Both the position numbers and the translations under genes were made by a program. Below, piece by piece: positions 4,644 to 43,023 of a DNA stretch of 64,000 nucleotides; positions within the stretch are counted from its first letter, which is position 1, and every line of letters starts with the position of its first letter. The DNA is taken from IMG/VR virus record IMGVR_UViG_3300021373_002787, positions 1-64,000 of that record. One strand, 5' to 3'. The DNA comes from a virus. The notes under the pieces are model-generated. The model was given only the letters and a program-made list of their open reading frames with translations. It ran no database searches and was not told the DNA's origin.

Positions 4644-4653
4644 TTTATATATC
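4644..4653 (-). promoter_or_regulatory. Putative late promoter GATATATAAA
   Basis: An exact copy of the window's late-promoter consensus, 20 nt upstream of the ATG of the holin-like gene at 4623. The same bases encode the last two codons and stop (Asp-Ile-TAA) of the preceding gene, an arrangement also seen at 38243 and 46307. Confidence 0.6.
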
Positions 4654-8071: not shown

Positions 8072-8584
8072 ATGGCGATAAATTACTCAAAGATCACGAT
8101 TAAAAGAACTAACAATCCAAGAGGTGGGTGTAGGTTTGGAGTCGTGCTGAAGCACTTGCCAAAATCATTTCGCCAATTTTTAATTAAGAACAAGAATATG
8201 TCAAGATGGGCAGAGAGCGACCAATGGGTTGAGTGCGCCTTGAAAATCCAGAGACCTAGGATAAAAGATTCTTCGGCATTAAAGATATATTGGGACTGGG
8301 AAAGCAGTTCCGTCGTGGATAAGCAGACACTTGAAAGCAACTACAATACAATAGATTGGATTTGTGCCGTATCTGGTAAACCAATCAGGTCTAAATTTAT
8401 GAACTTTGACCTTGAGAATTTTATTCACTCAGAATATCTTGATGTTTTAAAAGCTCCGATGGTCGATAGCCGAATCTTAAAGAGTTCGATAGAATTTCGC
8501 AAGAAATGCAAAGAACTCCTGCTCAATGAGAGGCAGGAGTTCCTTAATATGGCCCGTAAGAATGCTAAAAAGAGGTTAGACTAA
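8072..8584 (+). CDS. Hypothetical protein, only plus-strand gene
   Basis: A 170-residue basic protein with no family that I recognise. It starts with ATG after an AT-rich leader (AAATAAATATAGAAT). The sequence is rich in Lys/Arg and aromatic residues (for example DQWVECALKI, IYWDWESSS, WICAVSG) and ends in a charged helix (MARKNAKKRLD). It is divergent from the gp44 gene and convergent with the head-protein gene at 8576, overlapping the 3' end of that gene by 9 nt. Its composition looks coding throughout and there is no better minus-strand alternative over most of its length. Opposite orientation in an otherwise one-directional window suggests separate regulation or recent insertion. Confidence 0.7.
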   Translation: MAINYSKITIKRTNNPRGGCRFGVVLKHLPKSFRQFLIKNKNMSRWAESDQWVECALKIQRPRIKDSSALKIYWDWESSSVVDKQTLESNYNTIDWICAVSGKPIRSKFMNFDLENFIHSEYLDVLKAPMVDSRILKSSIEFRKKCKELLLNERQEFLNMARKNAKKRLD

Positions 8585-9997
8585 ATCTAATTCTAATTCT
8601 AGTATTGATATTTGATTTTCAAAAATCATTACGTCAAAATCATAAAGGTTCCAAGATTCTTTTGCACTAATTTTATCTTTTAATGCTTTGGCTTTTTTGA
8701 TTTTATCTTCATTTCCGCTCTCTTCTGCTTTTTTGATAATATCGTCAATTCTTTTGAGTTGATCCTCTTTAGAATTTTTCTTAGTAGAATTAGTATCTTC
8801 ATTATCTTTTTTAGAAGTTAATCCCTCTTTATCGGCTAATTCTTCACGTTCTTTCTTTAACCCATCTAGTTTTTTCTGAGCCTGTTCGATCTTTTCAGAG
8901 TCTCCGGATGCTTGTTCCTTTTTCAATTCAGCGGCAGCAACCGCAATTTCATATCCTTTAATCACAGACGGAGAGTTTGTATCGTCTTTCTTTGCGTTTT
9001 CGAGCTTTTGTTTATTAGTTTCAATTTGCTTATCTAGCTTATCGATCTTTCCTTTAGTTTGATCTCCCTTCTCTTCTTTCTTTCCTTGAGTTCCAAGTGC
9101 TTGCTGAAGTTCTTCATCATTCTTAACTGTCTCTTCATGATTTGCAATCTCTTGTTGAGTTTTTTCTGGGGATCCTTTCTTTGCCGCCTCAGCTTCTTTT
9201 TTCGCCTTTTCAACTTCTTCGGCATATTTGGCGTCCGCTTCAACTGCATTATTATACATCTGTTCATATCTTTCTTTCTCAGATGGCGTAAGTCCTTTTT
9301 CATTATCAAGCATCAATTTTGCAATTTGCATGTTTGACTCTGCATTAAGGGCTGCAATTATATCCTTATCTTTTGGATATTTTGAAGAAAGGGCAGTTGC
9401 ATAATCTTCGGCCGACTTTTTTAACTTTTCTATCTTTTGTTTATATTGGTCAACCTTGCTTTTACGTGAGGCTGCTTTTTTCTGTGCAATTGCCTTAGTT
9501 TTATCTTGTTTTACCGAAGGTGCTTTTTTAGGAGTTGCCTTTGGCGCTGCTACCTCAGCCTCTGTCAAATTATCCATTGCTATTTCCATCTTAGCAGCTT
9601 GTAACTTTGGCTTTCGTACATTCTTTTCAAAGTTCTTTCTAATCTTTGCTCTCCTAATAGCCTTCTTGATTAAGACTCCAATTCCGACTGCTGATCCACC
9701 AACAACCCCTGCTGCAATAAGTGGGATCATATATAATTCAGCAGACATCATTGAGGAAACTGCACCGTCAGCCTCTGTAATTAAGGCAGACTCGTTAGCC
9801 TCTTCTTCTTGACCAATTCCTCTTGCAAGATCTTCTAACTTGCTAATAATTGAATCAACATCGCTTACAATATCTGTTCTAACAGAATCAGTTGGTTGAG
9901 AAACTTGTGTCGTTGTATCAATAGCTACTTCGGTTGCAACTTCAGTTCCCGTTTGAGTAAACTCTTCAAACAACATTAATTTTTTAGATAACTTCAT
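8576..9997 (-). CDS. Lys/Glu-rich coiled-coil protein with membrane segment, likely head-associated
   Basis: A 473-residue protein just downstream of the major capsid gene. The N-terminus KLMLFEEFTQ resembles the capsid-targeting peptides elsewhere in the window (KLFEQF). A hydrophobic Gly/Ala-rich stretch at about residues 89-112 (MIPLIAAGVVGG, then VGIGVLIKKA) can span a membrane. The rest is long charged coiled coil rich in Lys, Glu, Ala and Gln. Two readings are possible: a scaffold or core protein of the prohead, or an internal head protein that enters the host membrane during DNA delivery. A GATATATAGA sequence (10023-10032) lies 25 nt upstream. Confidence 0.5.
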   Translation of the reverse strand: MKLSKKLMLFEEFTQTGTEVATEVAIDTTTQVSQPTDSVRTDIVSDVDSIISKLEDLARGIGQEEEANESALITEADGAVSSMMSAELYMIPLIAAGVVGGSAVGIGVLIKKAIRRAKIRKNFEKNVRKPKLQAAKMEIAMDNLTEAEVAAPKATPKKAPSVKQDKTKAIAQKKAASRKSKVDQYKQKIEKLKKSAEDYATALSSKYPKDKDIIAALNAESNMQIAKLMLDNEKGLTPSEKERYEQMYNNAVEADAKYAEEVEKAKKEAEAAKKGSPEKTQQEIANHEETVKNDEELQQALGTQGKKEEKGDQTKGKIDKLDKQIETNKQKLENAKKDDTNSPSVIKGYEIAVAAAELKKEQASGDSEKIEQAQKKLDGLKKEREELADKEGLTSKKDNEDTNSTKKNSKEDQLKRIDDIIKKAEESGNEDKIKKAKALKDKISAKESWNLYDFDVMIFENQISILELELDLV

Positions 9998-10103: not shown

Positions 10104-11591
10104 TTATAGTTCTAGACCTGTTACCTCGAATGAGTAGTACATAGTCTCTGGGTGGAAACCTGCTTCAACTAGAGCGAATCTAGATTTAACAGCTACCTTA
10201 GGAGCCATTGTACCTTCAGCGATAGCTTGTACGCTTTCAGCCATTAGGTAAGGCATGAATACAAGACCAGCACCATTTCCATCACCTTTTCTACCAACGA
10301 TAACTCTGTGAGTTTCAACTGCTGGTGAACCAGCTTGGTAACCTGAGAATGGAATTCTTGGGTCAGTGTAAACATTGATACCAGCTACAGAACCTACTGG
10401 GTAGATTGCACCTGCAACTTGTGATACAGTGTTTGCCATTGGGTTAGGAACGAATCCTGCAACTCCTTGTAGAGCTGAAGCTACTTTAGCATCAACAACT
10501 GCGAAGTTACCAGCACCTCTTCTACCTCTGTTAGCGATTAGGTTAGCAGAAGCTAAGATGTGAGTAAGGATTCTTCTGTTTACGTCACCGTAAGTGTTAC
10601 CACCAGCGCCGTAAGTTAGAGCTAGATCTAGAGAAGTGTTAGCAGCTGCTTTGTTCTCTAATGCTAGTTCGTTGATTCTTCCTAGGATGAAGTCGTTGAT
10701 TGACTGAGTTAATTCGTTAGTTAATACAGCCTCTACTTGAGCTACTGCGTCAACTCCGAATTGCTTAAGATCCTGAACCTGCTCTCTAGTTACTGCAGCA
10801 GCAACTTGGAAAGTTTCAGCCTCTACAGACTTGCTGAATAGAGATAGACCCATTAGCTTGTCAGCAGTTCTTTCACCACCTTCTCTTGAGAAAGGCTTAG
10901 CGAAAGTTGCGTAAGGATCGTTACCAGTGTTAACTCCATCACCAGAGAATCCTGGGATGTGGTCTTCTAGAGCCTTCACTAATTCAACTGCTGCTGAATT
11001 GTTACCTGAAGCCGCTCTGAAGTCAGCTAGTACGTTAGCCTCAACTAGATCACCAGTTACAGAGTAGATAGCGTATCCATCAATTCTTGAGTAACCTACT
11101 CTTGTGTAAGTTGCTGAAGTTGCTGGAGAACCTGGACCGAAAGATGCAGCGTCCTCATCAGACTTGATGTAAGTAGGAGCAGTTGCACCTAATTCGATAG
11201 TACCTCCTTCGTAAGTGAAGTCTAGGTAAGAAAGTAATCCCATAGGACCTGCCATTGGAATAACTGGTACAAGGTCAAGAGCGATAGTTTGAGCTGCAAC
11301 TTGCATCGCTAGTGGAAGTAAAGTTGGAGCCTTATCACCAGAACCTACAGCACCAGAAGTATCACCGTTCTGTGCAGTCTGTGTTGGGAAAGAAACCGCG
11401 CCCATACCTGTTAGGTTCATTGGGCCAGGGTTGTTGCTTAATGACATGATGTTAGCATCTTCATAAAGCTTGTGATTGTGACAGTAAGTTGACATCCATG
11501 CCAGCTTTTCAGAATCGTTAATACCTGTAGCCTCCTCGATAATTGGAGCCCAAGTTGTTCTGATTTCTGCCTCGTTAATTAAATTAGCCAT
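10104..11591 (-). CDS. 23: Major capsid protein (gp23-like)
   Basis: Forms the hexamers of the head. It is 495 residues (T4 gp23 has 521), in the expected order after portal and protease. Recognisable features are the N-terminal TTWAPIIEEATG (compare NKWKPLLE in T4), NLTGMGAVSFP around residues 58-68, and a long region rich in Ala/Gly/Asn typical of the HK97-fold gp23. T4 gp23 is trimmed by gp21 after a hydrophobic-x-Glu site. Here INE7-A8 and IEE20-A21 fit that rule, but I see no site near residue 65 as in T4. Codon choice is narrow and repetitive, as in a very highly expressed gene. An 80-nt leader separates it from its promoter. Confidence 0.9.
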   Translation of the reverse strand: MANLINEAEIRTTWAPIIEEATGINDSEKLAWMSTYCHNHKLYEDANIMSLSNNPGPMNLTGMGAVSFPTQTAQNGDTSGAVGSGDKAPTLLPLAMQVAAQTIALDLVPVIPMAGPMGLLSYLDFTYEGGTIELGATAPTYIKSDEDAASFGPGSPATSATYTRVGYSRIDGYAIYSVTGDLVEANVLADFRAASGNNSAAVELVKALEDHIPGFSGDGVNTGNDPYATFAKPFSREGGERTADKLMGLSLFSKSVEAETFQVAAAVTREQVQDLKQFGVDAVAQVEAVLTNELTQSINDFILGRINELALENKAAANTSLDLALTYGAGGNTYGDVNRRILTHILASANLIANRGRRGAGNFAVVDAKVASALQGVAGFVPNPMANTVSQVAGAIYPVGSVAGINVYTDPRIPFSGYQAGSPAVETHRVIVGRKGDGNGAGLVFMPYLMAESVQAIAEGTMAPKVAVKSRFALVEAGFHPETMYYSFEVTGLEL

Positions 11592-11681
11592 TTTTTCAGT
11601 TTATTTTTTTTAATGGTTATTTTCGACATTATCGGGGCTTTCTGCTTCTGTCGCCCTTATCGTCGATATTCTTTATATATT
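11592..11681 (-). promoter_or_regulatory. Late promoter and structured leader of the major capsid gene
   Basis: AATATATAAA (11672-11681) matches the late consensus with one change. Unlike the other late promoters, which sit 20-22 nt from the ATG, this one leaves an 80-nt leader. The leader can fold: CGAC/GTCG and GGGC/GCCC arms enclose a purine-rich loop (about 11622-11665). It then runs into an A-rich stretch before the ATG. No U-tract follows the arms, so it does not look like a terminator. Confidence 0.5.
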
Positions 11682-13606
11682 TACTTGTTAAATCTTTTCT
11701 TTAACTCTGTAGCGTAGTTAGAAACATCATAACCAAGTCCGTTAGCTTCTTCTTTCTTAGATTCTGTTACCATTTCGATTTTTTCCATCTTTGGTGCAGT
11801 TTCTCTAAGATCTCTAGTTTGCCAGAAGTCTCTTACTTGATATTCTGTCTCTAGTCTGCGGTAATTAGCCTGAGCCTTGATTTGATTTTGTTTTCCTTCA
11901 GAAAGAGCTTCCCAAGTTTCTTTATATTCAGTTGGCATAACTTCAATAAAGTAAGGGGTTGCGTTTCTGTTTTCTACGATTAGAGTTGAGCTCTCGATAA
12001 GTGATTCGATTTGAGATTCAGTCATAAAGCCTCTCTTAGAAACATTATATCTAACCTCTTTCTTAGCATCTTCGTTAAGAGCATTGTATTTCTCTTGTAC
12101 TTTAGAAGAAACAACTTTAAAGAATGAAGGATTTTCATTCTCCTTTTTCGTAGCAGCTTCTACTAGGGTGTTAAGTTTTTCAGAGATTTCATTTTTGTAT
12201 GCGTCAGCTGCTGAAACTTCTTCAGCCTCTGCTACTTCTTTACCAGCACCATCAGCTCCACCTTCTAGATCTGCTTCTAGTTCGTCTGACTTATCTTCAG
12301 CGTCATCTCCTTCTGGAGCAACTTCTTGTTTGCTGTTATCTAGTTCAGAATCCATATCTTCTGTAGGGGTTGCTGCTTCTTCGCCTTCAACATCTCCTTC
12401 TTTAGAGTTATCACCAACTTCAACATCTTTTTCAAGATCTTCAACTTCTACACCAGCTTCAACTCCTTCTTCTTCAACTACTAGATTTTCATTGATAGAT
12501 TCAGCAATATACTCAGCATATTCAGTAACTGATTGTAAGTTCTCTTTCAAGTAGTTAGTGTACTCGATAAGTTTTTCAGCTGACTCAGTGTTTTCGTTGT
12601 GCGCTTCTGCTAAATAATTAGCATATTCCTTAACCTTTGATAGTGATTCAGCAACGTGCTCGCTGTATTGAATTGATTGATCTAGTTTTTCAGCAACGTG
12701 CTCGCTGTATTGAATTGACTGATCTAGTTTTTCAGCAACTGATTCACTGTACTGGATTCCTTGATCTGCTTTTTCAGCAACGTGCTCGCTGTATTGAATT
12801 GATTGATCTAATTTTTCAGCAAGATACTCAACGTATTCTGAAATGTTATTTACGTTTTCAACGATGTGGTCATTGTGAGCTTTGATTCCATCTAGCTCAT
12901 TGTTTTCATTTGCTTCGGTCTCTTTAGTATCTAACGTCTCTTTTAATGATTTAATCTCATTAGCAAGATATTCTGTGTACTTATTAAAGTCTTCAGCTTT
13001 TACAAAATCTGCCATGTCTTTATTTTCTATGATTTGTGTTTGTTCGTTATTTGATTTATTTATCTCATAAATATAGAGACCGTTCTCGTTATTGAATCCA
13101 TAAGATTCATTAACTCTTTTCAGCTCTGCATTTTCGAATCCAGGGTCTGCAACTAAGTCATAAGTAAATAGCTGCTTAATTTTTACTTTACCATTTGATT
13201 CAACAGCACCAGCTGCTCTAGAAGAAATTTGTAGAGGAACTCCAGCGTCAACAAGAGCTTTCGCCTGTCTACCTGCATCAGTATCTAATAGTCTGATACG
13301 TCCCTTTACCTGCTTGGTTTCTTTCTCATAAAATAAATCTTCAATGATGTGTGAGACGTTCTTCAGAGATACGTCAAACTGCGATGGGTGATCTAACTCC
13401 CCTAAAAGCTTTCCAGACTTAATCTTATTCTGAAGTGCTTCGATTTGTGGAACGTATTCATCCTCGCTGTAAATTCTTTGATTCTTATTCTTTACATCGA
13501 TTTCTCCGAAAATACCTTCCAAAACATATTCTTTTGTTCCACCGTCAGCCACCGAAAGAGTTTTCGAAGACATCTCGACGATCAAAAGATCCTTTATATT
13601 TTCCAT
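11681..13606 (-). CDS. 21: Fused prohead protease (gp21-like) and scaffold (gp22-like)
   Basis: Residues 1 to about 165 are the prohead maturation protease: EGIFGEID, GKLLGELDHPSQ (His73) and QISSRAAGAVE (Ser128/129) carry the catalytic His and Ser, and FTYDLVADPGF ends the domain. From about residue 198 the same frame continues into a long acidic coiled coil with four near-perfect 14-residue repeats, as expected of the core scaffold. T4 encodes these as separate genes 21 and 22. The junction holds a candidate self-cleavage site RVNE167-S168, and an internal ATG (13013-13015, MADFVKAEDF) preceded by an A-rich leader that could start a free scaffold. A GATATATAAA promoter lies 20 nt upstream. 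Confidence 0.87.
   Translation of the reverse strand: MENIKDLLIVEMSSKTLSVADGGTKEYVLEGIFGEIDVKNKNQRIYSEDEYVPQIEALQNKIKSGKLLGELDHPSQFDVSLKNVSHIIEDLFYEKETKQVKGRIRLLDTDAGRQAKALVDAGVPLQISSRAAGAVESNGKVKIKQLFTYDLVADPGFENAELKRVNESYGFNNENGLYIYEINKSNNEQTQIIENKDMADFVKAEDFNKYTEYLANEIKSLKETLDTKETEANENNELDGIKAHNDHIVENVNNISEYVEYLAEKLDQSIQYSEHVAEKADQGIQYSESVAEKLDQSIQYSEHVAEKLDQSIQYSEHVAESLSKVKEYANYLAEAHNENTESAEKLIEYTNYLKENLQSVTEYAEYIAESINENLVVEEEGVEAGVEVEDLEKDVEVGDNSKEGDVEGEEAATPTEDMDSELDNSKQEVAPEGDDAEDKSDELEADLEGGADGAGKEVAEAEEVSAADAYKNEISEKLNTLVEAATKKENENPSFFKVVSSKVQEKYNALNEDAKKEVRYNVSKRGFMTESQIESLIESSTLIVENRNATPYFIEVMPTEYKETWEALSEGKQNQIKAQANYRRLETEYQVRDFWQTRDLRETAPKMEKIEMVTESKKEEANGLGYDVSNYATELKKRFNK
12647..12814 (-). 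repeat. Four tandem 42-bp repeats in the scaffold region
   Basis: Units at 12647-12688, 12689-12730, 12731-12772 and 12773-12814 each encode a 14-residue element of the type EKLDQSIQYSEHVA. Three copies are nearly identical in DNA; the third from the left (12731-12772) is diverged (EKADQGIQYSESVA). Related but degraded units continue on both sides (ESLSKVKEYANYLA). Fourteen residues equals two heptads, so adding or losing a unit keeps the coiled-coil register. Confidence 0.9.
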
Positions 13607-13626
13607 ATTTGTGGTTTATTTGTTTC

Positions 13627-13636
13627 TTTATATATC
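13627..13636 (-). promoter_or_regulatory. Putative late promoter GATATATAAA
   Basis: An exact consensus match, 20 nt upstream of the protease-scaffold ATG at 13606, located in the gap after the core-protein gene. Confidence 0.65.
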
Positions 13637-13657: not shown

Positions 13658-14050
13658 TTACATGTTTTCAAGGTCTGCTAATTCACTTTCGATATCATCT
13701 CCGCCCTCTTCAGAATCTTCAGCTCCCGCCTCTGCTTCAGCTCCGGCAGGTGCCTCTTCTTCTTTCTCTGCGTCGGCCTCTTCCTCTTTCTGTTCAGCAT
13801 ACCATTCGTTCCACTTTTGCTTGATTTCAGCAAGTTCGCCCTGTTTAAATGCATTTTGACCATATTTGTCGAAGAAGTAGTCTTCCAATTGCTTTTCATT
13901 CTCAGAATTAACAATTGCTCCAACTATCTCCGCAGATGGTATTGTTTTACCGTCCTCTAGTGTGATGTCGTCTACTGTAACCTCAGATTCTTCTCCAGGT
14001 TTCATAGTGTCTTCCTTAATGAATTGTTCAAATAATTTTACGTATTTCAT
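13658..14050 (-). CDS. Prohead core protein with capsid-targeting peptide (gp67/68 position)
   Basis: A 130-residue very acidic protein between portal and protease, the place of T4 genes 67 and 68, which encode prohead core proteins. It opens with MKYVKLFEQFIKE-D, the same targeting peptide shared by the cargo genes at 33944-43023, with the predicted protease cut after IKE13. The C-terminal half is low complexity (Glu, Ala, Asp, Gly; for example EEADAEKEEEAPAG). Because core proteins of T4 are degraded or trimmed by gp21, this gene may show the ancestral use of the peptide. The start lies 19 nt after the portal stop. Confidence 0.7.
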   Translation of the reverse strand: MKYVKLFEQFIKEDTMKPGEESEVTVDDITLEDGKTIPSAEIVGAIVNSENEKQLEDYFFDKYGQNAFKQGELAEIKQKWNEWYAEQKEEEADAEKEEEAPAGAEAEAGAEDSEEGGDDIESELADLENM

Positions 14051-14069: not shown

Positions 14070-15668
14070 TTACATCATTCCACCCATCATATCCATTGCA
14101 TCTGGTTCGTCTGCGCTTTCGGCGTCATCTTTAGCCTTAGCCGCTGCATTTGCTGCCAAGTCATCATCAGATACTTTAAGATATTTTTTAACAAGGAAGT
14201 CCATGTCAAAGAAGTATTCTTCTTCCATCGTCGCTGGGTTTGTTGTCATTAAGCTGTCTCTCATCTGTCCAATAAAGTCTAATCTACGCTCCATGATTTC
14301 GTAGTTCTTTAATTCTGCAAATACATTTTCTTCATTAAATCGAAGTGCAACTTGCGTTTTGAATTGTGGATCGTTCTCGAACTCAGGGTATTTAAGACAC
14401 ATTTGTAAGTAGAGTGGCTTTACCAATACCTCTTGGAAAACTGATCTAAGTCTATTAATAAACTTAGAGAATTTAATTTCATCTCTAATCATTCCATCAG
14501 CAGCAAGGTTAAAATCACCACCACCATCTTCATATAGGAAACGTGAGTAAGGAATTTTAGAAACGTGTTTTAATTTATCACTAAAGTATTTAAGTGCTTC
14601 TGTGTCTGAAAGGTCAGGTCCATCGCCTCCAAGCGTTTCAATTTCTGGCTGTTCACCATCTTTTGAAGGTAACCAATATTCTTTATTGAATTGTAACATT
14701 GGTTTTCCATCAGTTTGAAGCGAAGCACTTTCCCAGTCAAAATCAACATTTTCTTTATATGAGTGCATCAGTTGAGCAAGAGATTGTTTTGCTCTTGTCT
14801 TTGATTTACCACCAACCGGAATAATGAACTTCATTCTAAAGCTCGAGTTTGTTGTTGCCCAAATAACTCGAGTGTGTTCCATAATTCTCAATAGGTTAAA
14901 TGCTCTAACAAGTCTTTCAATATATGAAACTCTACTTGCAGTCGTGATTGAAGAATATGAAATATAGATGATTTGAGAGTCGTATAATTTTCTCTCTTTT
15001 ACTGGATCGTCTTTATATTGTACCCAAACTTTTTTACCGTCTTCGTGATTATATCCAGGAATAAGTGTAATTGGATCAAGTTCTTTAAAACCAATAATCT
15101 CCTTTTGATCTGGAGAATATACAATTTCGAATGCAAGATAACCATCAACTAAGAATTTTCTATAGTAATACCAAGCTGATTGATCTTGTGTAAATCCAAA
15201 GTACTGATAAAGTTGCTTATAATATTTGTTAAGATCTTTTTCAACTTCATCGCTAACTTCCATTCCAATGATTTCAGGTTGAGCAAAGAAATTTCTTTCA
15301 TCATAAACTACAGTCTCATCACACATAATATCGAGAATATCCTCGATCTCGTCGTTAAGTGAAAATCTTCTTAGTTCATCTCTTTTACCTTCATAATCCT
15401 TATCAAAGAATGGGATGTTTTTCTTTAGGTTGACATCAGTCATCGACAGAGCGGCAAACGCTCCATAGATGTCATCATTATCAAGACCCATCGGATTCAT
15501 TTGACCATAGCCAAGTTGATCCTCCATCGGCCCAATTGCTTGAGACTGTCGAAGAACCAAGTCATCGTATCTCATTCCAAACGATGATAGATTTTTCAAT
15601 GCGGTAGAGATCCTAAATGGTCTCTTTCCCGTACTTAATGGTCCATTTCTATCAGTAAATCCTGCCAT
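14070..15668 (-). CDS. 20: Portal protein (gp20-like)
   Basis: Dodecameric vertex ring through which DNA enters the head and to which the neck attaches. It is 532 residues (T4 gp20 has 524). Features typical of the family include DEIEDILDIMCDETVVYD, WYYYRKFLVDGYLAFEIVY, FKELDPITLIPGY, and the region RVIWATTNSSFRMKFIIPV, followed by LPSKDGEQPEIETLGG and SRFLYEDGGG. It is followed by the core protein, protease and capsid genes in the T4 order. An AATATATAAA promoter (15689-15698) lies 20 nt upstream of the ATG. Confidence 0.92.
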   Translation of the reverse strand: MAGFTDRNGPLSTGKRPFRISTALKNLSSFGMRYDDLVLRQSQAIGPMEDQLGYGQMNPMGLDNDDIYGAFAALSMTDVNLKKNIPFFDKDYEGKRDELRRFSLNDEIEDILDIMCDETVVYDERNFFAQPEIIGMEVSDEVEKDLNKYYKQLYQYFGFTQDQSAWYYYRKFLVDGYLAFEIVYSPDQKEIIGFKELDPITLIPGYNHEDGKKVWVQYKDDPVKERKLYDSQIIYISYSSITTASRVSYIERLVRAFNLLRIMEHTRVIWATTNSSFRMKFIIPVGGKSKTRAKQSLAQLMHSYKENVDFDWESASLQTDGKPMLQFNKEYWLPSKDGEQPEIETLGGDGPDLSDTEALKYFSDKLKHVSKIPYSRFLYEDGGGDFNLAADGMIRDEIKFSKFINRLRSVFQEVLVKPLYLQMCLKYPEFENDPQFKTQVALRFNEENVFAELKNYEIMERRLDFIGQMRDSLMTTNPATMEEEYFFDMDFLVKKYLKVSDDDLAANAAAKAKDDAESADEPDAMDMMGGMM

Positions 15669-27388: not shown

Positions 27389-27799
27389 TTATTTTATTGT
27401 TGAATAGGCTTCAAACCATTCAGGTGTTGAAATAATCTCGCTTATTACGCTTTTGTCATCGACATTGATTTGAATTAATCCACCTTGTTTTTGGATAGAT
27501 TTCCAAAACTTCTTTACAACTCCGATTTTTTTATATTGATTTTCATCAAATTCAAGAACTTCAATTCCAGTAATTTTTAAGACATCGGTCGGCCTAACAA
27601 AGGAATGCATTCCAGATCCAACTGCATTTGTTTTTTCATCTCGACCCATTATTGTTCTTGAGTGAATAACTCCAAAATAGTTTAGTCTTACAAGGTCTGC
27701 TGGTTGAAAGGTTTTAGCATTCTTATATTTGCTTACAAAATCTTCTACCGACATATTTGCCTCGTTTACAAACTGTTCGAATAATTTTACGTGTTTCAT
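27389..27799 (-). CDS. Capsid-targeted cargo protein inserted in the replication block
   Basis: A 136-residue protein that opens with MKHVKLFEQFVNE-A, the shared targeting peptide, with predicted cleavage after VNE13. The mature part begins NMSVEDFVSKYKNAKTF; two other cargo proteins have a related segment here (ITFQDLVNKYKDN at 34317 and MSLQDLVESDAED at 33944). The rest is a small beta-rich domain with no recognised family. It lies alone between the clamp gene and nrdA, bounded by near-identical terminators, with an AATATATAGA sequence 26 nt upstream. It looks like a late cassette dropped into an early region. Confidence 0.75.
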   Translation of the reverse strand: MKHVKLFEQFVNEANMSVEDFVSKYKNAKTFQPADLVRLNYFGVIHSRTIMGRDEKTNAVGSGMHSFVRPTDVLKITGIEVLEFDENQYKKIGVVKKFWKSIQKQGGLIQINVDDKSVISEIISTPEWFEAYSTIK

Positions 27800-35531: not shown

Positions 35532-35897
35532 TTATAGCTTTAGCCCTATCGAAATTGCAGTTACATATTCTTTGGCGTAAGCAGGTGATCTTTTAGATTT
35601 ACTTACAAATGGTAATTTCTTAATGCTTGATATGGCCCGCTTTACATCAAACTTATCTAATACATGGTTTCGTTCTGCTAGGTCTGTTGCCGTTGCCGTT
35701 AAATTATATCCACCAATTTTATTATCATAACTTGGCAAAGCTTGTATTTTCCAGTACATGTGTCCTGTTGCTTTATAAAGATCATCTTTGATTTCCTTTT
35801 TGTGGGCGTCTACTGCATCGACAACTTTTTTGTAATCTTCTCTGCTCATAGATTCATTTACGATTAAGAATTCTTCAAATAATTTTACGTGTTTCAT
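35532..35897 (-). CDS. Capsid-targeted cargo protein
   Basis: A 121-residue basic protein with targeting peptide MKHVKLFEEFLIVNE-S (two-residue insertion, predicted cut after VNE15). The mature part is a small alpha/beta domain: MSREDYKKVVDAVDAHKK helix, MYWKIQALPSYDN, GGYNLTATATDLAERN and a final basic strand AYAKEYVTAISIGLKL. No family recognised; small basic proteins delivered with phage DNA are often inhibitors of host nucleases or polymerases, which is only an analogy here. Confidence 0.75.
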   Translation of the reverse strand: MKHVKLFEEFLIVNESMSREDYKKVVDAVDAHKKEIKDDLYKATGHMYWKIQALPSYDNKIGGYNLTATATDLAERNHVLDKFDVKRAISSIKKLPFVSKSKRSPAYAKEYVTAISIGLKL

Positions 35898-35908
35898 TTT
35901 TATTTTGA

Positions 35909-36103
35909 TTAGAATTTTTGATATTTTGATGTAAAATCTATCATTTGGGGTCCCATTTTCCTAATAAAATCAATAGTTTGTTGAGATATATCTGAAGTGT
36001 TTTCTAAATAATCACAAGCTTCTTCAATTTCTTTCTTTAATGCTGATGTAGAGATTACCTTTGCTTCATTTACGAAATGTTCAAGTAATTTTACGTGTTT
36101 CAT
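35909..36103 (-). CDS. Small capsid-targeted cargo protein
   Basis: A 64-residue protein, the shortest of the set: MKHVKLLEHFVNE-A, then a helical 50-residue body (ALKKEIEEACDYLENT, IDFIRKMGPQMIDF). After the predicted cut only 51 residues remain. It is 11 nt from the gene at 35532 and 21 nt from the large gene upstream. Confidence 0.72.
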   Translation of the reverse strand: MKHVKLLEHFVNEAKVISTSALKKEIEEACDYLENTSDISQQTIDFIRKMGPQMIDFTSKYQKF

Positions 36104-39516: not shown

Positions 39517-40632
39517 TTATTTAGCGATGTCTTCTGGTAGAGGCAGACCTGACATTCCTAGTTTAACTTCAAATTCTTTAAAGATCTCATCTCTCTTTTT
39601 AGGAAACTTAAACATTGATGAGTTAATTAAATCTCTTAAACTCTCATATGTCATTAAATCACTTACTTTTGCGCCATCGAAGAGAAGGTCTGCTATCTCT
39701 TCTGGTAGTCTTGTAATTTCTTTATCGAATTCTTTTAGTAACTTTGCGTTTTTAACCAATCCTCTCTTACCAACAAATGATTTACGAACCTTTACAACTC
39801 CTTGATTCAAGCGAATTACATATGCTTCGTACTCTTTTGTTTCTCCCTCTTCTGTTTGATCTATAATCTCAACAAATGATTTACCAATTGCCGACATTAG
39901 GAGGATGTTTCTATATGCACCTTTATATTTTGACTCGTCTTTTGTAAAGTCTGGAGAGTGGTACATAAATCTACTCCAATTAATATCTCTTGATAACATT
40001 AGGTCGACTTGACCTACTCCATTATTTGATTTACCCTCAATAGGAGCAGCGATTGATACCTGCTGGAATCCTACAGCCATTGAGGTGTCTAACCCTTTTT
40101 CTTTCAATAAATCATTCATATCGAAAAGAACTTTAGCCAGTGAAGTGTCTAAGTGTCCTGCAATCTTATCGGCAGAAACAGCAATATCAATATCTCCGCT
40201 AGTCTCTCCTGGATTCTTTTTTCCAGCGCTTCCAATAACTGCAGCATCCTCTCCGATACCAGCAATTCCAATATGAGGAAAAACATTTTTCTCGATCCAT
40301 TCTAGAGTTGCTGCAACTTCATGTTGTTCAAATGGTCTGGACTGTGCAATTGCATTACCACTTTCACTTACAAACTGTTCAAACGCAGCTGCAACATATT
40401 TACGACCGTGTTTATTATGTAATATGTCTGAGATTAGACCTTCTTTGTCAATCCCTTTAGGGTTACCAATTTTATAACTTAGCGACCACATCTTTCTTAA
40501 TTCAGCAGTTGACGTCTTTTTAAGTTTTTTGTACTCTCTGCGGATTGATTCAGGATCCCTCTTTGAAGAAAAGTTTGATCGCGGAATCTTATCTTCACTT
40601 ACAAACTGTTCAAATAATTTAACGTATTTCAT
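39517..40632 (-). CDS. Capsid-targeted nucleotidyltransferase (pol-beta superfamily), double targeting unit
   Basis: A 371-residue protein starting MKYVKLFEQFVSE-D. A second copy of the peptide is embedded at about 80-91 (YVAAAFEQFVSE-S), whose DNA still matches other cargo starts, so this is an in-frame fusion of two cargo genes. The first unit (14-79) is a small helical basic domain. The second has the nucleotidyltransferase active site: GSAGKKNPGETSGDIDIAV (Gly-Ser at 134-135, Asp147 and Asp149) and a third Asp in VGQVDLML. This superfamily transfers NMP to proteins, RNA or antibiotics. After cleavage the enzyme would be free inside the head and could be delivered to the host. Confidence 0.78.
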   Translation of the reverse strand: MKYVKLFEQFVSEDKIPRSNFSSKRDPESIRREYKKLKKTSTAELRKMWSLSYKIGNPKGIDKEGLISDILHNKHGRKYVAAAFEQFVSESGNAIAQSRPFEQHEVAATLEWIEKNVFPHIGIAGIGEDAAVIGSAGKKNPGETSGDIDIAVSADKIAGHLDTSLAKVLFDMNDLLKEKGLDTSMAVGFQQVSIAAPIEGKSNNGVGQVDLMLSRDINWSRFMYHSPDFTKDESKYKGAYRNILLMSAIGKSFVEIIDQTEEGETKEYEAYVIRLNQGVVKVRKSFVGKRGLVKNAKLLKEFDKEITRLPEEIADLLFDGAKVSDLMTYESLRDLINSSMFKFPKKRDEIFKEFEVKLGMSGLPLPEDIAK

Positions 40633-40640
40633 CTCTATTT

Positions 40641-40994
40641 TTACTTATTATGATATTCTATTTGGTCTTTTAAAAATTCCTTAATTGTTGGAATTACATC
40701 ATCTTCAGAATTAATTTCATCAGCCCAGTTGTCATCACCAAAAACCTCTCCATTTCTAAAAAATCGAATAGATCCGTAATCACGATCATTATCTTTGTAT
40801 TTAGGTCCAGTCAGAATATAATCCATTCTATTTGCCAGAATTCCCTCTTTTTCAATAGTTGCCGGATACCCAGCCTTTTTAAGTATCTTAGCCGCTTTTC
40901 TCAGGTTTAATTTTACACCTCTATCTCTTCCTACTTCTTTAGCAGTTATCGTGTATTCACCTATAAACTGCTCAAATAATTTAACGTATCTCAT
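40641..40994 (-). CDS. Capsid-targeted cargo protein
   Basis: A 117-residue basic protein: MRYVKLFEQFIGE-Y targeting peptide, then TAKEVGRDRGVKLNLRKAAK, a helix, and a beta segment (MDYILTGPKYKDND, GSIRFFRNGEVFGDD). No family recognised. An 8-nt gap separates it from the nucleotidyltransferase gene that follows it. Confidence 0.74.
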   Translation of the reverse strand: MRYVKLFEQFIGEYTITAKEVGRDRGVKLNLRKAAKILKKAGYPATIEKEGILANRMDYILTGPKYKDNDRDYGSIRFFRNGEVFGDDNWADEINSEDDVIPTIKEFLKDQIEYHNK

Positions 40995-41060: not shown

Positions 41061-41666
41061 TTATTTTATTATGTGTTTTCTTAATTTGTCATAGTATTTA
41101 TAAAGATATTTCGGCACCATCTTTTCGAATGCTTCTCTATCATCATTTGCAAGTGCTTCTCTAGTCTTTGTACCGCTAGGTCCTCCTTCTGCTCTTGCAT
41201 CTACCATTTCTAGTTTAAAATCCGGATGTACAACCGTATCGGTCTTTGGTCCAGTAACATATTTAATCTGTGGTGTGTATGCCTTGATTCTGTCGCTTCC
41301 AGCACCTACACCAACAGTCTCATATCCTTGCTCTCTTAAGAATCTAACAAACCAAGGAATTACTGTTCTACCATAGCTATTTGGGTAAATAAAGAAATCT
41401 GCGATCTCCTTCTCGTTCTTTGCAACCTCTTGTCCAATTTGAAGTAGAAGGCTTTCTGGGAATGGAGACTCTTCACGCTTTGAAACTATTTGCATCGCAA
41501 CTACTGGCTTACCAAACATTTTGGCAGCATTTTTAAGGGCTGCGATATGTCCATTATGAAATGGCTGGAATCTACCAGGCATTACCACGACTTCAGTACC
41601 CTCAATTGGTTGAGTGGTGTCTACCGCCTCACTAATAAACTGCTCGAATAGTTTTACGTGTTTCAT
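41061..41666 (-). CDS. Capsid-targeted nucleotidylyltransferase (NMNAT-like)
   Basis: A 201-residue protein: targeting peptide MKHVKLFEQFISE-A, then a complete Rossmann-type nucleotidylyltransferase domain. VVMPGRFQPFHNGH (about 27-40) carries the (H/T)xGH motif, and PSGTKTREAL near the C-terminus is the second nucleotide-binding motif (S-x-T-x-x-R type). VGVGAGSDRIKAYTPQ fits the adenylyl site. This size and pattern are those of archaeal-type NMN adenylyltransferase, which makes NAD from NMN and ATP; other NMP transfers are possible. Finding it behind a head-targeting peptide suggests that the enzyme is packaged and injected. Confidence 0.85.
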   Translation of the reverse strand: MKHVKLFEQFISEAVDTTQPIEGTEVVVMPGRFQPFHNGHIAALKNAAKMFGKPVVAMQIVSKREESPFPESLLLQIGQEVAKNEKEIADFFIYPNSYGRTVIPWFVRFLREQGYETVGVGAGSDRIKAYTPQIKYVTGPKTDTVVHPDFKLEMVDARAEGGPSGTKTREALANDDREAFEKMVPKYLYKYYDKLRKHIIK

Positions 41667-41685: not shown

Positions 41686-42132
41686 TTAGCCTATATAATA
41701 GCTACTAGATTTATCTATATTAAGTTCTTTACCATAGTCATCAGTAAATGCATTGTATGGTTTTTTAGCACTTAGTGAAAATGAATTTGCGTCAATTTCT
41801 TGGATTAAGAAATGTAAAGATTCTACTCTAGCCATTCTTTCTAAACCTGGTCTAATAGTTTCTATAGCTTGGTCAATATCAAACCCATCTTTGGCGTTAA
41901 ATGTCATAAATGTTTTAGAACCTGGTTTAATTGTAACTCTACTAGTTGATAAAGATTGAATATCACTAGGTTTTACGAATTTTTTAACCGATGAAACAAA
42001 ACCCTTTGAATTTTTCCATGGCATATAATTAGTAGATGCTCCTATTCCACCTGCTCTCATTTCAGTATCGCGGTCTACTCCATAGTACTCGGCTTCATTT
42101 ACAAATTGTTCAAATAGTTTTACGTGTTTCAT
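41686..42132 (-). CDS. Capsid-targeted cargo protein
   Basis: A 148-residue protein: MKHVKLFEQFVNE-A, then a mature part with YYGVDRDTEMRAGGIGAS, a Lys/Ser-rich strand region and a helix DIDQAIETIRPGLERMARV. No family recognised. It is 19 nt upstream of the NMNAT-like gene, in the same direction, with the usual A/T-rich leader. Confidence 0.74.
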   Translation of the reverse strand: MKHVKLFEQFVNEAEYYGVDRDTEMRAGGIGASTNYMPWKNSKGFVSSVKKFVKPSDIQSLSTSRVTIKPGSKTFMTFNAKDGFDIDQAIETIRPGLERMARVESLHFLIQEIDANSFSLSAKKPYNAFTDDYGKELNIDKSSSYYIG

Positions 42133-42174: not shown

Positions 42175-42432
42175 CTAACATCTGCACATCGCATAACCTA
42201 GAACGTTTTCAACATATGATTCTAATTCTTCTATAGTAGCATATATTTCATCTGGATCTGTATTTGGATCGTAAAGACCTTTATCCATTAAATAGTCAAT
42301 AAACATGTCCATGTCTTCGTTATCCCAAACATCTCTTCCTTTCATTGTTTTAGCCCACCATTTTTTAGCCTCTTTCTCGATTTTCTTATCGGCTTCATTT
42401 ACAAATTGTTCGAATAGTTTTATGTGTTTCAT
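42175..42432 (-). CDS. Small capsid-targeted cargo protein, copy A of a duplicate
   Basis: An 85-residue protein: MKHIKLFEQFVNE-A, then DKKIEKEAKKWWAKTMKGRD and DMDMFIDYLMDKGLYDPN, a helical acidic/basic domain. It is a close paralogue of the gene at 42775-43023 (same first 30 residues bar three, same central helix). The end differs (GYAMCRC here, GYEFDY there). No family recognised. Confidence 0.76.
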   Translation of the reverse strand: MKHIKLFEQFVNEADKKIEKEAKKWWAKTMKGRDVWDNEDMDMFIDYLMDKGLYDPNTDPDEIYATIEELESYVENVLGYAMCRC

Positions 42433-42441
42433 TGCTTCTTT

Positions 42442-42756
42442 TTATCTTTTAATTTCTATATTATAATAATGTTCATTATCACCATTTTCTTTAACAACCT
42501 GTAGAGCTTTTGCACCAAAATCTTTAATAGCCTCTCTAATATCTTTTGCAATAGATTGGCCCTTCATACCTCTATATGTTATGAAAATATTTTTTGTGTC
42601 TTTAGGTCCTTTTGGAAAAGCATAAGGAACAAATTTACTTTTCATTTCTTGAGCAGTGCCATGATTCCAATCAAGTTCATTTTCAAGGTGCTTGATTAAT
42701 TCATCAACGTTTACAGATTCATTAATATATTGTTCGAATAGTTTTATGTGTTTCAT
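42442..42756 (-). CDS. Capsid-targeted cargo protein
   Basis: A 104-residue basic protein between the two duplicate genes: MKHIKLFEQYINE-S, then VNVDELIKHLENELDWNH and a small alpha/beta domain (NIFITYRGMKGQSI, then KDIREAIKDFGAKALQVV). No family recognised. Its leader and those of its neighbours are alike, consistent with growth of the cluster by local duplication. Confidence 0.74.
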   Translation of the reverse strand: MKHIKLFEQYINESVNVDELIKHLENELDWNHGTAQEMKSKFVPYAFPKGPKDTKNIFITYRGMKGQSIAKDIREAIKDFGAKALQVVKENGDNEHYYNIEIKR

Positions 42757-42774: not shown

Positions 42775-43023
42775 TTAATAGTCAAACTCATAACCTAGAA
42801 CGTTATCAACATATGATTCTAGTTCTTCTCTAGTATCACTTAGTTCATCTGAATTTGGATCTACTAGACCTTTATCCATTAAATAGTCGATGAACATGTC
42901 CATGTCTTCGGCATCCCAAGAATCTCTTCCCTTCATTGTTTTAGCCCACCATGTTTTAGCCTCTTTCTCGATTTTCTTATCGGCTTCATTTACAAATTGT
43001 TCAAATAGCTTTACGTGTTTCAT
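42775..43023 (-). CDS. Small capsid-targeted cargo protein, copy B of a duplicate
   Basis: An 82-residue paralogue of the gene at 42175: MKHVKLFEQFVNE-A, DKKIEKEAKTWWAKTMKGRD, DMDMFIDYLMDKGLVDPN. The differences fall in the loop after the central helix and at the C-terminus, which suggests selection for variation at those sites or simple drift. It follows the ligase-like gene by 8 nt. Confidence 0.76.
   Translation of the reverse strand: MKHVKLFEQFVNEADKKIEKEAKTWWAKTMKGRDSWDAEDMDMFIDYLMDKGLVDPNSDELSDTREELESYVDNVLGYEFDY

Follow-up and report, generated by a model that had tools for sequence, protein, structure and literature searches.

A gp21-type prohead protease and a putative scaffold joined in one reading frame in T4-related phages

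In phage lambda the scaffold Nu3 is nested in frame within the gene of the protease C, a ClpP-like enzyme, and in herpesviruses the protease and the scaffold share one frame (UL26) and a shorter, scaffold-only protein (UL26.5) is made from a separate transcript. Phage T4 has two genes for these functions, encoding the protease gp21 (MEROPS S77) and the scaffold gp22. The cut rule of gp21 is L/I-X-E, N- and C-terminal self-processing have been suggested for it, and it has an internal start of its own at Met45 (PMC9026906); C-terminal processing has been suggested elsewhere as well (PMC5694885). In phage P2, gpO joins an N-terminal protease and a C-terminal scaffold in one protein, with no scaffold-only product described (PMC7552001).

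The gene considered here would work like UL26/UL26.5 or lambda C/Nu3 if it gives two products, or like P2 gpO if it gives one. Its protease is homologous to T4 gp21 (structure 5JBL), and the gene order and the N- and C-terminal LxE candidate sites are also as in T4, whereas the two T4 genes are one frame here and the scaffold part has no detectable homology to gp22. With UL26/UL26.5 it shares a protease and a scaffold in one frame, a related protease fold and, as predicted below, a shorter scaffold-only product; it differs in having no internal promoter-like motif. The fold of the lambda protease is unrelated to the one here. The same fusion, with a C-terminal FW domain, is present in the complete genomes of Tenacibaculum phages PTm1, PTm5 and pT24 (annotated as 'prohead core scaffold(ing protein and protease)') and of the Lak megaphages, which differ in lacking a Met at the aligned internal-start position. 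PTm1 and PHROG entries contain the long protein; no published description of a gp21-scaffold fusion was found, in a search thin on subscription papers.

The fused frame and its distribution

The window (the whole 64,000-nucleotide stretch analysed, from IMG/VR record IMGVR_UViG_3300021373_002787, itself a partial, 86 kb fragment) carries on its minus strand a single open frame of 641 aa with an ATG start and without an internal stop, flanked as follows:

14070-15668, minus strand: portal protein gp20, upstream neighbour (Pfam Portal_T4, PF07230, E 1.4e-67)
13658-14050, minus strand: small acidic core protein in the gp67/68 slot (by position; capsid-targeting-like N-terminus)
11681-13606, minus strand: protease-scaffold fusion gene (641 aa; open in ~160 relatives)
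10104-11591, minus strand: major capsid protein gp23, downstream neighbour (Pfam Gp23, PF07068, E 4.8e-44)

An earlier reading of the letters alone (the sequence-only reading) had placed a protease and a scaffold in one 641-residue frame, and that frame is indeed present. It fills the gp21-gp22 slot, with the portal gene (gp20) on one side and the major capsid gene (gp23) on the other. Given these flanking genes, the order in the window (20 - small acidic ORF - fusion - 23) keeps the T4 order 20-67/68-21-22-23, with 21 and 22 in one frame.

An IMG/VR scan from the window returned 80 relatives, and another that started from a 735 kb phage added 80; wherever the contig reaches the protease/scaffold junction, none of these approximately 160 relatives has a stop there. 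A stop codon hidden between the two parts by a sequencing error, about which the sequence-only reading had been wary, is thereby excluded. The metagenomic source might invite the suspicion that an assembly or sequencing error joined two genes, but isolate genomes have the same open frame, as do ~160 loci taken from many samples, which refutes the suspicion; such an error has practically no chance of being the explanation, and the fusion is virtually certain to be real.

Fused genes occur in the complete isolate genomes of Tenacibaculum phages PTm1 (564 aa), PTm5 and pT24 (527 aa), in Prevotella Lak megaphages (581 aa in Lak-B2, under code 15), in LR756500-504 and LR745206, which like Lak-B2 are complete genomes, and in huge phages of 460-735 kb. 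Bacteroidota are the predicted hosts of this large family, also for its members among the largest known phages. No relatives were found in the genome_contigs collection. Two separate genes are carried by cyanophage S-RIM32, Salmonella phages SD-1_S14 and Munch, Campylobacter Los1, Sinorhizobium phiM9 and phiN3, Stenotrophomonas Mendera, T2, Vibrio D479, Salicola SCTP-2 and Pseudomonas PA5oct. The search for the fusion among relatives, which had been proposed from the sequence alone, has found it to be general in a large clade; separate genes, which in close relatives would have spoken against it, were seen in distant T4-like phages and in Sphingomonas phage PAU.

In a protease tree of 36 rows, the 24 fused proteins and PAU form one group (support 100/99). 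The tree needs two state changes, the simplest course being one fusion with a later loss in PAU; several branches are long, which leaves the fine placement unsure. PTm1 and Lak share residues P558, F594 and W595 in the C-terminal domain, while the MP..W...FW pattern is retained in pT24, and these shared invariants argue for a fusion that arose once.

PAU (L181, 3411-4987) is the lone member of the fused clade in which the protease and an annotated scaffold are separate (gp151 and gp152); this scaffold has no C-terminal FW domain and starts with a CTS-like MKTLTQLYEA. Some relatives (L016, L022, L064) have an inserted ORF with a CTS leader, e.g. MQYVKLFEQFINEAK, immediately after the fusion and before the capsid gene.

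Protease domain, junction and second half

An S77 protease (residues ~25-165) comes first in the protein; after a disordered linker follow a long region of helices, a stretch of acidic character and a helical domain at the C-terminus. The features are as follows (a slash marks a candidate cut):

13574-13585, minus strand: N-terminal LIVE11/M, counterpart of the T4 gp21 LIE-9 candidate site (PMC9026906)
13112-13534, minus strand: gp21-type serine protease domain, residues ~25-165 (Pfam S77; 5JBL profile and fold; pLDDT ~80-89)
13388-13390, minus strand: His73, predicted catalytic (invariant; aligns with T4 His85, Ala in the 5JBL chain)
13223-13225, minus strand: Ser128, predicted nucleophile (invariant; aligns with T4 Ser140, Ala in the 5JBL chain)
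13157-13159, minus strand: Asp150 (invariant; aligns with T4 Asp168)
13103-13117, minus strand: RVNE167/S, predicted self-cleavage site at the protease/linker boundary (E167 invariant; pLDDT <50 from residue 166)
13016-13105, minus strand: linker, residues 168-197 (variable in length and sequence; in clade A, the window's clade, E and Met are 30-41 aa apart)
12482-13015, minus strand: long helical region of ~14-aa repeats, residues 198-375, rich in [LIV]xE (15 sites vs 6.1 shuffled)
12212-12481, minus strand: acidic disordered stretch, residues 376-465 (pLDDT ~25)
11684-12211, minus strand: C-terminal helical domain, residues 466-641, with invariant P558, F594 and W595 (shared with PTm1, pT24 and Lak)

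By profile and by model the protease is a member of the S77 family. Residues 18-138 match Pfam Peptidase_S77 (PF03420) at E 3.6e-13 and 49.9 bits against a curated cut-off of 27, PHROG_207 'head maturation protease' matches residues 8-534 (E 8.8e-39), and a family profile finds the T4 gp21 structure 5JBL at E 1.9e-48. The AlphaFold model of the whole protein is of low confidence (mean pLDDT 57, pTM 0.30), and therefore only its protease and C-terminal domain were used; the protease part matches 5JBL in Foldseek at E 4.3e-8 (rmsd 2.0, TM 0.69 by target), the next PDB match being the VZV protease (E 0.008). Where the sequence-only reading had pointed to Ser128/129, S128 is the probable nucleophile, because the T4 residue with which it aligns, S140, is replaced by Ala in 5JBL.

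The RVNE-S at the junction (residues 164-168), which had been said to fit the phage's own protease rule, is present as described, and its glutamate is invariant across the family: E167 is kept in all of 21 aligned proteases, 13 fused and 8 stand-alone, with mostly L, I, V or M two residues before it and S, G, A or N after it. The model turns disordered at residue 166. The T4 counterpart by alignment is E187 (ITE/S), near the C-terminal processing region suggested for gp21. Because it is invariant in fused and separate proteases alike, this glutamate has the look of the ancestral site of C-terminal processing in gp21, an old site that was kept when the scaffold was joined. The protein is, on this conservation, quite probably cut at E167; folding instead of cutting could also be the cause of the conservation.

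Potential cut sites of the [LIV]xE type number 30 in the linker and scaffold against 15.4+-3.2 in shuffles, a twofold excess, and 3 against 2.8 in the protease domain. Candidate substrates with a like motif are this phage's CTS-like leaders (FVNE/A) and the major capsid proteins of relatives (INE/N or LNE/N), and two sets of features in the window are of this kind:

within 10104-11591, minus strand: candidate propeptide sites of the major capsid protein, INE7/A, IEE20/A and LYE44/D (by motif)
8576-9997, 13658-14050, 27389-27799, 35532-35897, 35909-36103, 39517-40632, 40641-40994, 41061-41666, 41686-42132, 42175-42432, 42442-42756 and 42775-43023, minus strand: ORFs with CTS-like leaders

These ~12 otherwise unlike ORFs, all on the minus strand, share the near-identical leader MK(H/Y)(V/I)KLFEQF(V/I)(N/S)E. 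The leaders resemble T4 capsid-targeting sequences, with KLFE/ and FVNE/A sites, and suggest a large set of head-packaged proteins that would be freed by the protease. The ORF at 41061-41666 looks like a nucleotidyltransferase (GRFQPFHNGH).

The second half of the fusion is very probably the scaffold, as judged from its position, helices, acidity and cut-site density and not from homology to gp22. Comparison with gp22 by hhalign gave probabilities of 1.6% and 0.2%, with no significant similarity, PHROGs gave no scaffold match for this half, and a PDB profile search returned nothing significant. In structure it is most like other fused proteins and an uncharacterised viral protein; a Foldseek match to Campylobacter gp22 (E 1.9) was disregarded. 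The scaffold proposed from the sequence alone is favoured by position and properties, and its kinship with gp22 found no support in sequence comparison.

The internal start and the rival readings

The features that bear on how many products are made from the gene are as follows:

13626-13634, minus strand: late-promoter-like TATATAAAG ahead of the fusion (by motif)
13016-13055, minus strand: A-rich leader of the internal start, without Shine-Dalgarno (62% A over 40 nt)
13013-13015, minus strand: predicted internal start codon, Met198 (55/55 clade A genes; near-zero synonymous variation in codons 194-202)
11671-11679, minus strand: late-promoter-like TATATAAAG before the capsid gene (50 of 54 clade A loci have such a motif here)

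Met198 is present in all 55 distinct clade A genes, at a spacing of 30-41 aa from E167. The 30 nt before it have a mean A content of 0.678 in clade A, against 0.377 at other internal Met, and this 68% is comparable to the 62% A in the 30 nt preceding the gene's true start; within the window only 3 of 384 internal ATGs are equally A-rich over 30-40 nt. The window's own leader has G rather than A at -3 and -12. Such leaders fit initiation in Bacteroidota, the host group inferred from related isolates, because ribosomes there initiate without a Shine-Dalgarno and upstream adenines are favoured (PMC6847099). Codons 194-202 are near-fixed (GAA 29/29, AAA 26/26, AAC 26/26, GCA 32/32, GAA 28/28, GTA 36/36), the gene mean ratio being 0.79 (sd 0.17) for comparison, and synonymous codons are frozen too at the true starts that served as positive controls, those of the portal (GCA 21/21, GGA 20/21, TTT 20/20) and the major capsid protein (AAT 35/35, TTA 37/37). 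Fixed synonymous codons are not explained by protein constraint and therefore count against a plain conserved Met198. The leader and codon constraint speak for a start, not for a rate of initiation.

The internal ATG with a normal leader that the sequence-only reading had noticed is thus codon 198, and in the window's clade it has what true starts have: an A-rich, non-Shine-Dalgarno leader, conservation and frozen codons. On these signs the start is very probably used in this clade; the claim does not carry over to PTm1, pT24 and Lak, in which no Met was seen at the aligned position and a single product like that of P2 gpO is therefore possible.

In clade B (the 735 kb phages and their relatives) the Met is kept in 56/56, but its leader, with a mean of 0.47 A, is not rich in A: 23% of the other internal Met attain the median. 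An internal start judged by an A-rich leader is unsupported in that clade, and the constraint sits in a different element upstream. This element, AACTTTAGGATATATGAn..TCCGAnGAGTCAAAA, is ~45 nt long and in the coding frame, ~35-75 nt 5' of the internal Met (L097-L176, L095, L096), has frozen rare codons (e.g. AGG 42/47, GAG 44/46) and is nearly absent elsewhere in those loci. Some copies hold an inverted repeat, GGATATAT-G-ATATATCC.

With regard to transcription, TATATAAA occurs 16 times on the minus strand of the window against 2 on the plus strand, and (G)ATATATAAA, often just 5' of genes (minus-strand positions 4651, 11679, 13634, 15696, 17177, 18463 and others), is a likely late promoter of this phage group. 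The late-promoter-like motif TATATAA precedes the capsid gene in 50 of 54 clade A loci and occurs inside the fusion gene in none of the 54; internal translation is therefore more likely than a separate transcript, and an internal promoter in clade A was rejected. The DNA encoding YIYE, upstream of the leader, was likewise rejected as a promoter, its codons varying freely. Late-promoter-like copies in clade B have a conserved AAAATGGAAAAA..TGAC..TTTTTT in front. The leader of the capsid gene (11623-11666, minus strand) holds a hairpin, TCGAC..GGGC-GACAGAAGCAGAAA-GCCC..GTCGA, whose inner stem shows compensatory changes among 24-25 clade A loci (GGGC/GCCC, GGGT/ACCC, GGAC/GTCC, GGAG/CTCC, GAGT/ACTC) and whose loop, GAAGCAGAA, is conserved among them; Rfam gave no match anywhere in the window.

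The best explanation of the locus, and a likely one on these patterns, is a nested protease/scaffold gene. Initiation at the first ATG would give a minority of full-length protease-scaffold and initiation at Met198 on the same mRNA a larger amount of scaffold-only protein, and the two products would co-assemble via their shared helical and C-terminal regions, so that the protease would reach the core with no targeting signal of its own. Once the shell has closed, it would free itself at RVNE167/S, and perhaps also at LIVE11/M, and would then cut the scaffold at its many [LIV]xE sites, together with the capsid propeptide and the leaders of internal proteins, whereupon the fragments would leave. 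The point made from the sequence alone, that fusion by itself would put one protease on each scaffold unless internal initiation adds scaffold, is sound as an argument on stoichiometry.

It might instead be that the full-length fusion alone is made, each scaffold subunit bringing one protease that self-cleavage at E167 frees and Met198 being merely a conserved residue. P2 gpO is itself a protein of this build (PMC7552001), and PTm1, pT24 and Lak are fused without the Met; in the window's clade, however, Met198 is fixed behind a variable linker, the A content of its leader matches that at true starts, and synonymous variation in codons 194-202 is near zero as it is there, so that we regard a single product as unlikely. 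A scaffold-only protein translated from its own internal transcript, with a promoter inside the gene, would have a model in UL26 and the 3'-coterminal UL26.5 annotated in herpesviruses (PMC3462797), and the conserved DNA element 5' of the clade B Met could be read in the same direction. That element nevertheless lacks the sequence that precedes late-promoter-like motifs in clade B, and both the lack of the motif inside clade A fusion genes and the free variation of the YIYE codons argue against such a promoter, which makes this arrangement very unlikely.

There is also some reason to ask whether the C-terminal part is another core or targeting protein, with the scaffold encoded elsewhere, given that no gp22 homology is detectable and that the partial, 86 kb record leaves room for a second scaffold. 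Yet the part occupies the exact gp22 slot, is acidic and built of helices and has a twofold excess of protease sites, and in PTm1 and pT24 the next large gene follows the fusion with no other ORF in between; we therefore think this rather unlikely. As to the origin of the nested gene, it seems highly improbable that a herpesvirus-type arrangement with a related fold in T4-related phages predates the split of the lineages and is not convergent, which would make the two-gene state of T4 the derived one.

Meaning for the Bacteroidota phages

In the T4-related lineage of Bacteroidota phages that includes Lak and the 735 kb phages, the scaffold appears to be hidden as the unannotated C-terminus of entries named 'prohead protease'. 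The fusion bears on how gp21 enters the core and on the reason for its C-terminal cut, in that the C-terminal propeptide of gp21 in fused phages would be the scaffold itself. If two products are made as predicted, the gene would be to these phages what UL26/UL26.5 is to herpesviruses, with proteases that are related.
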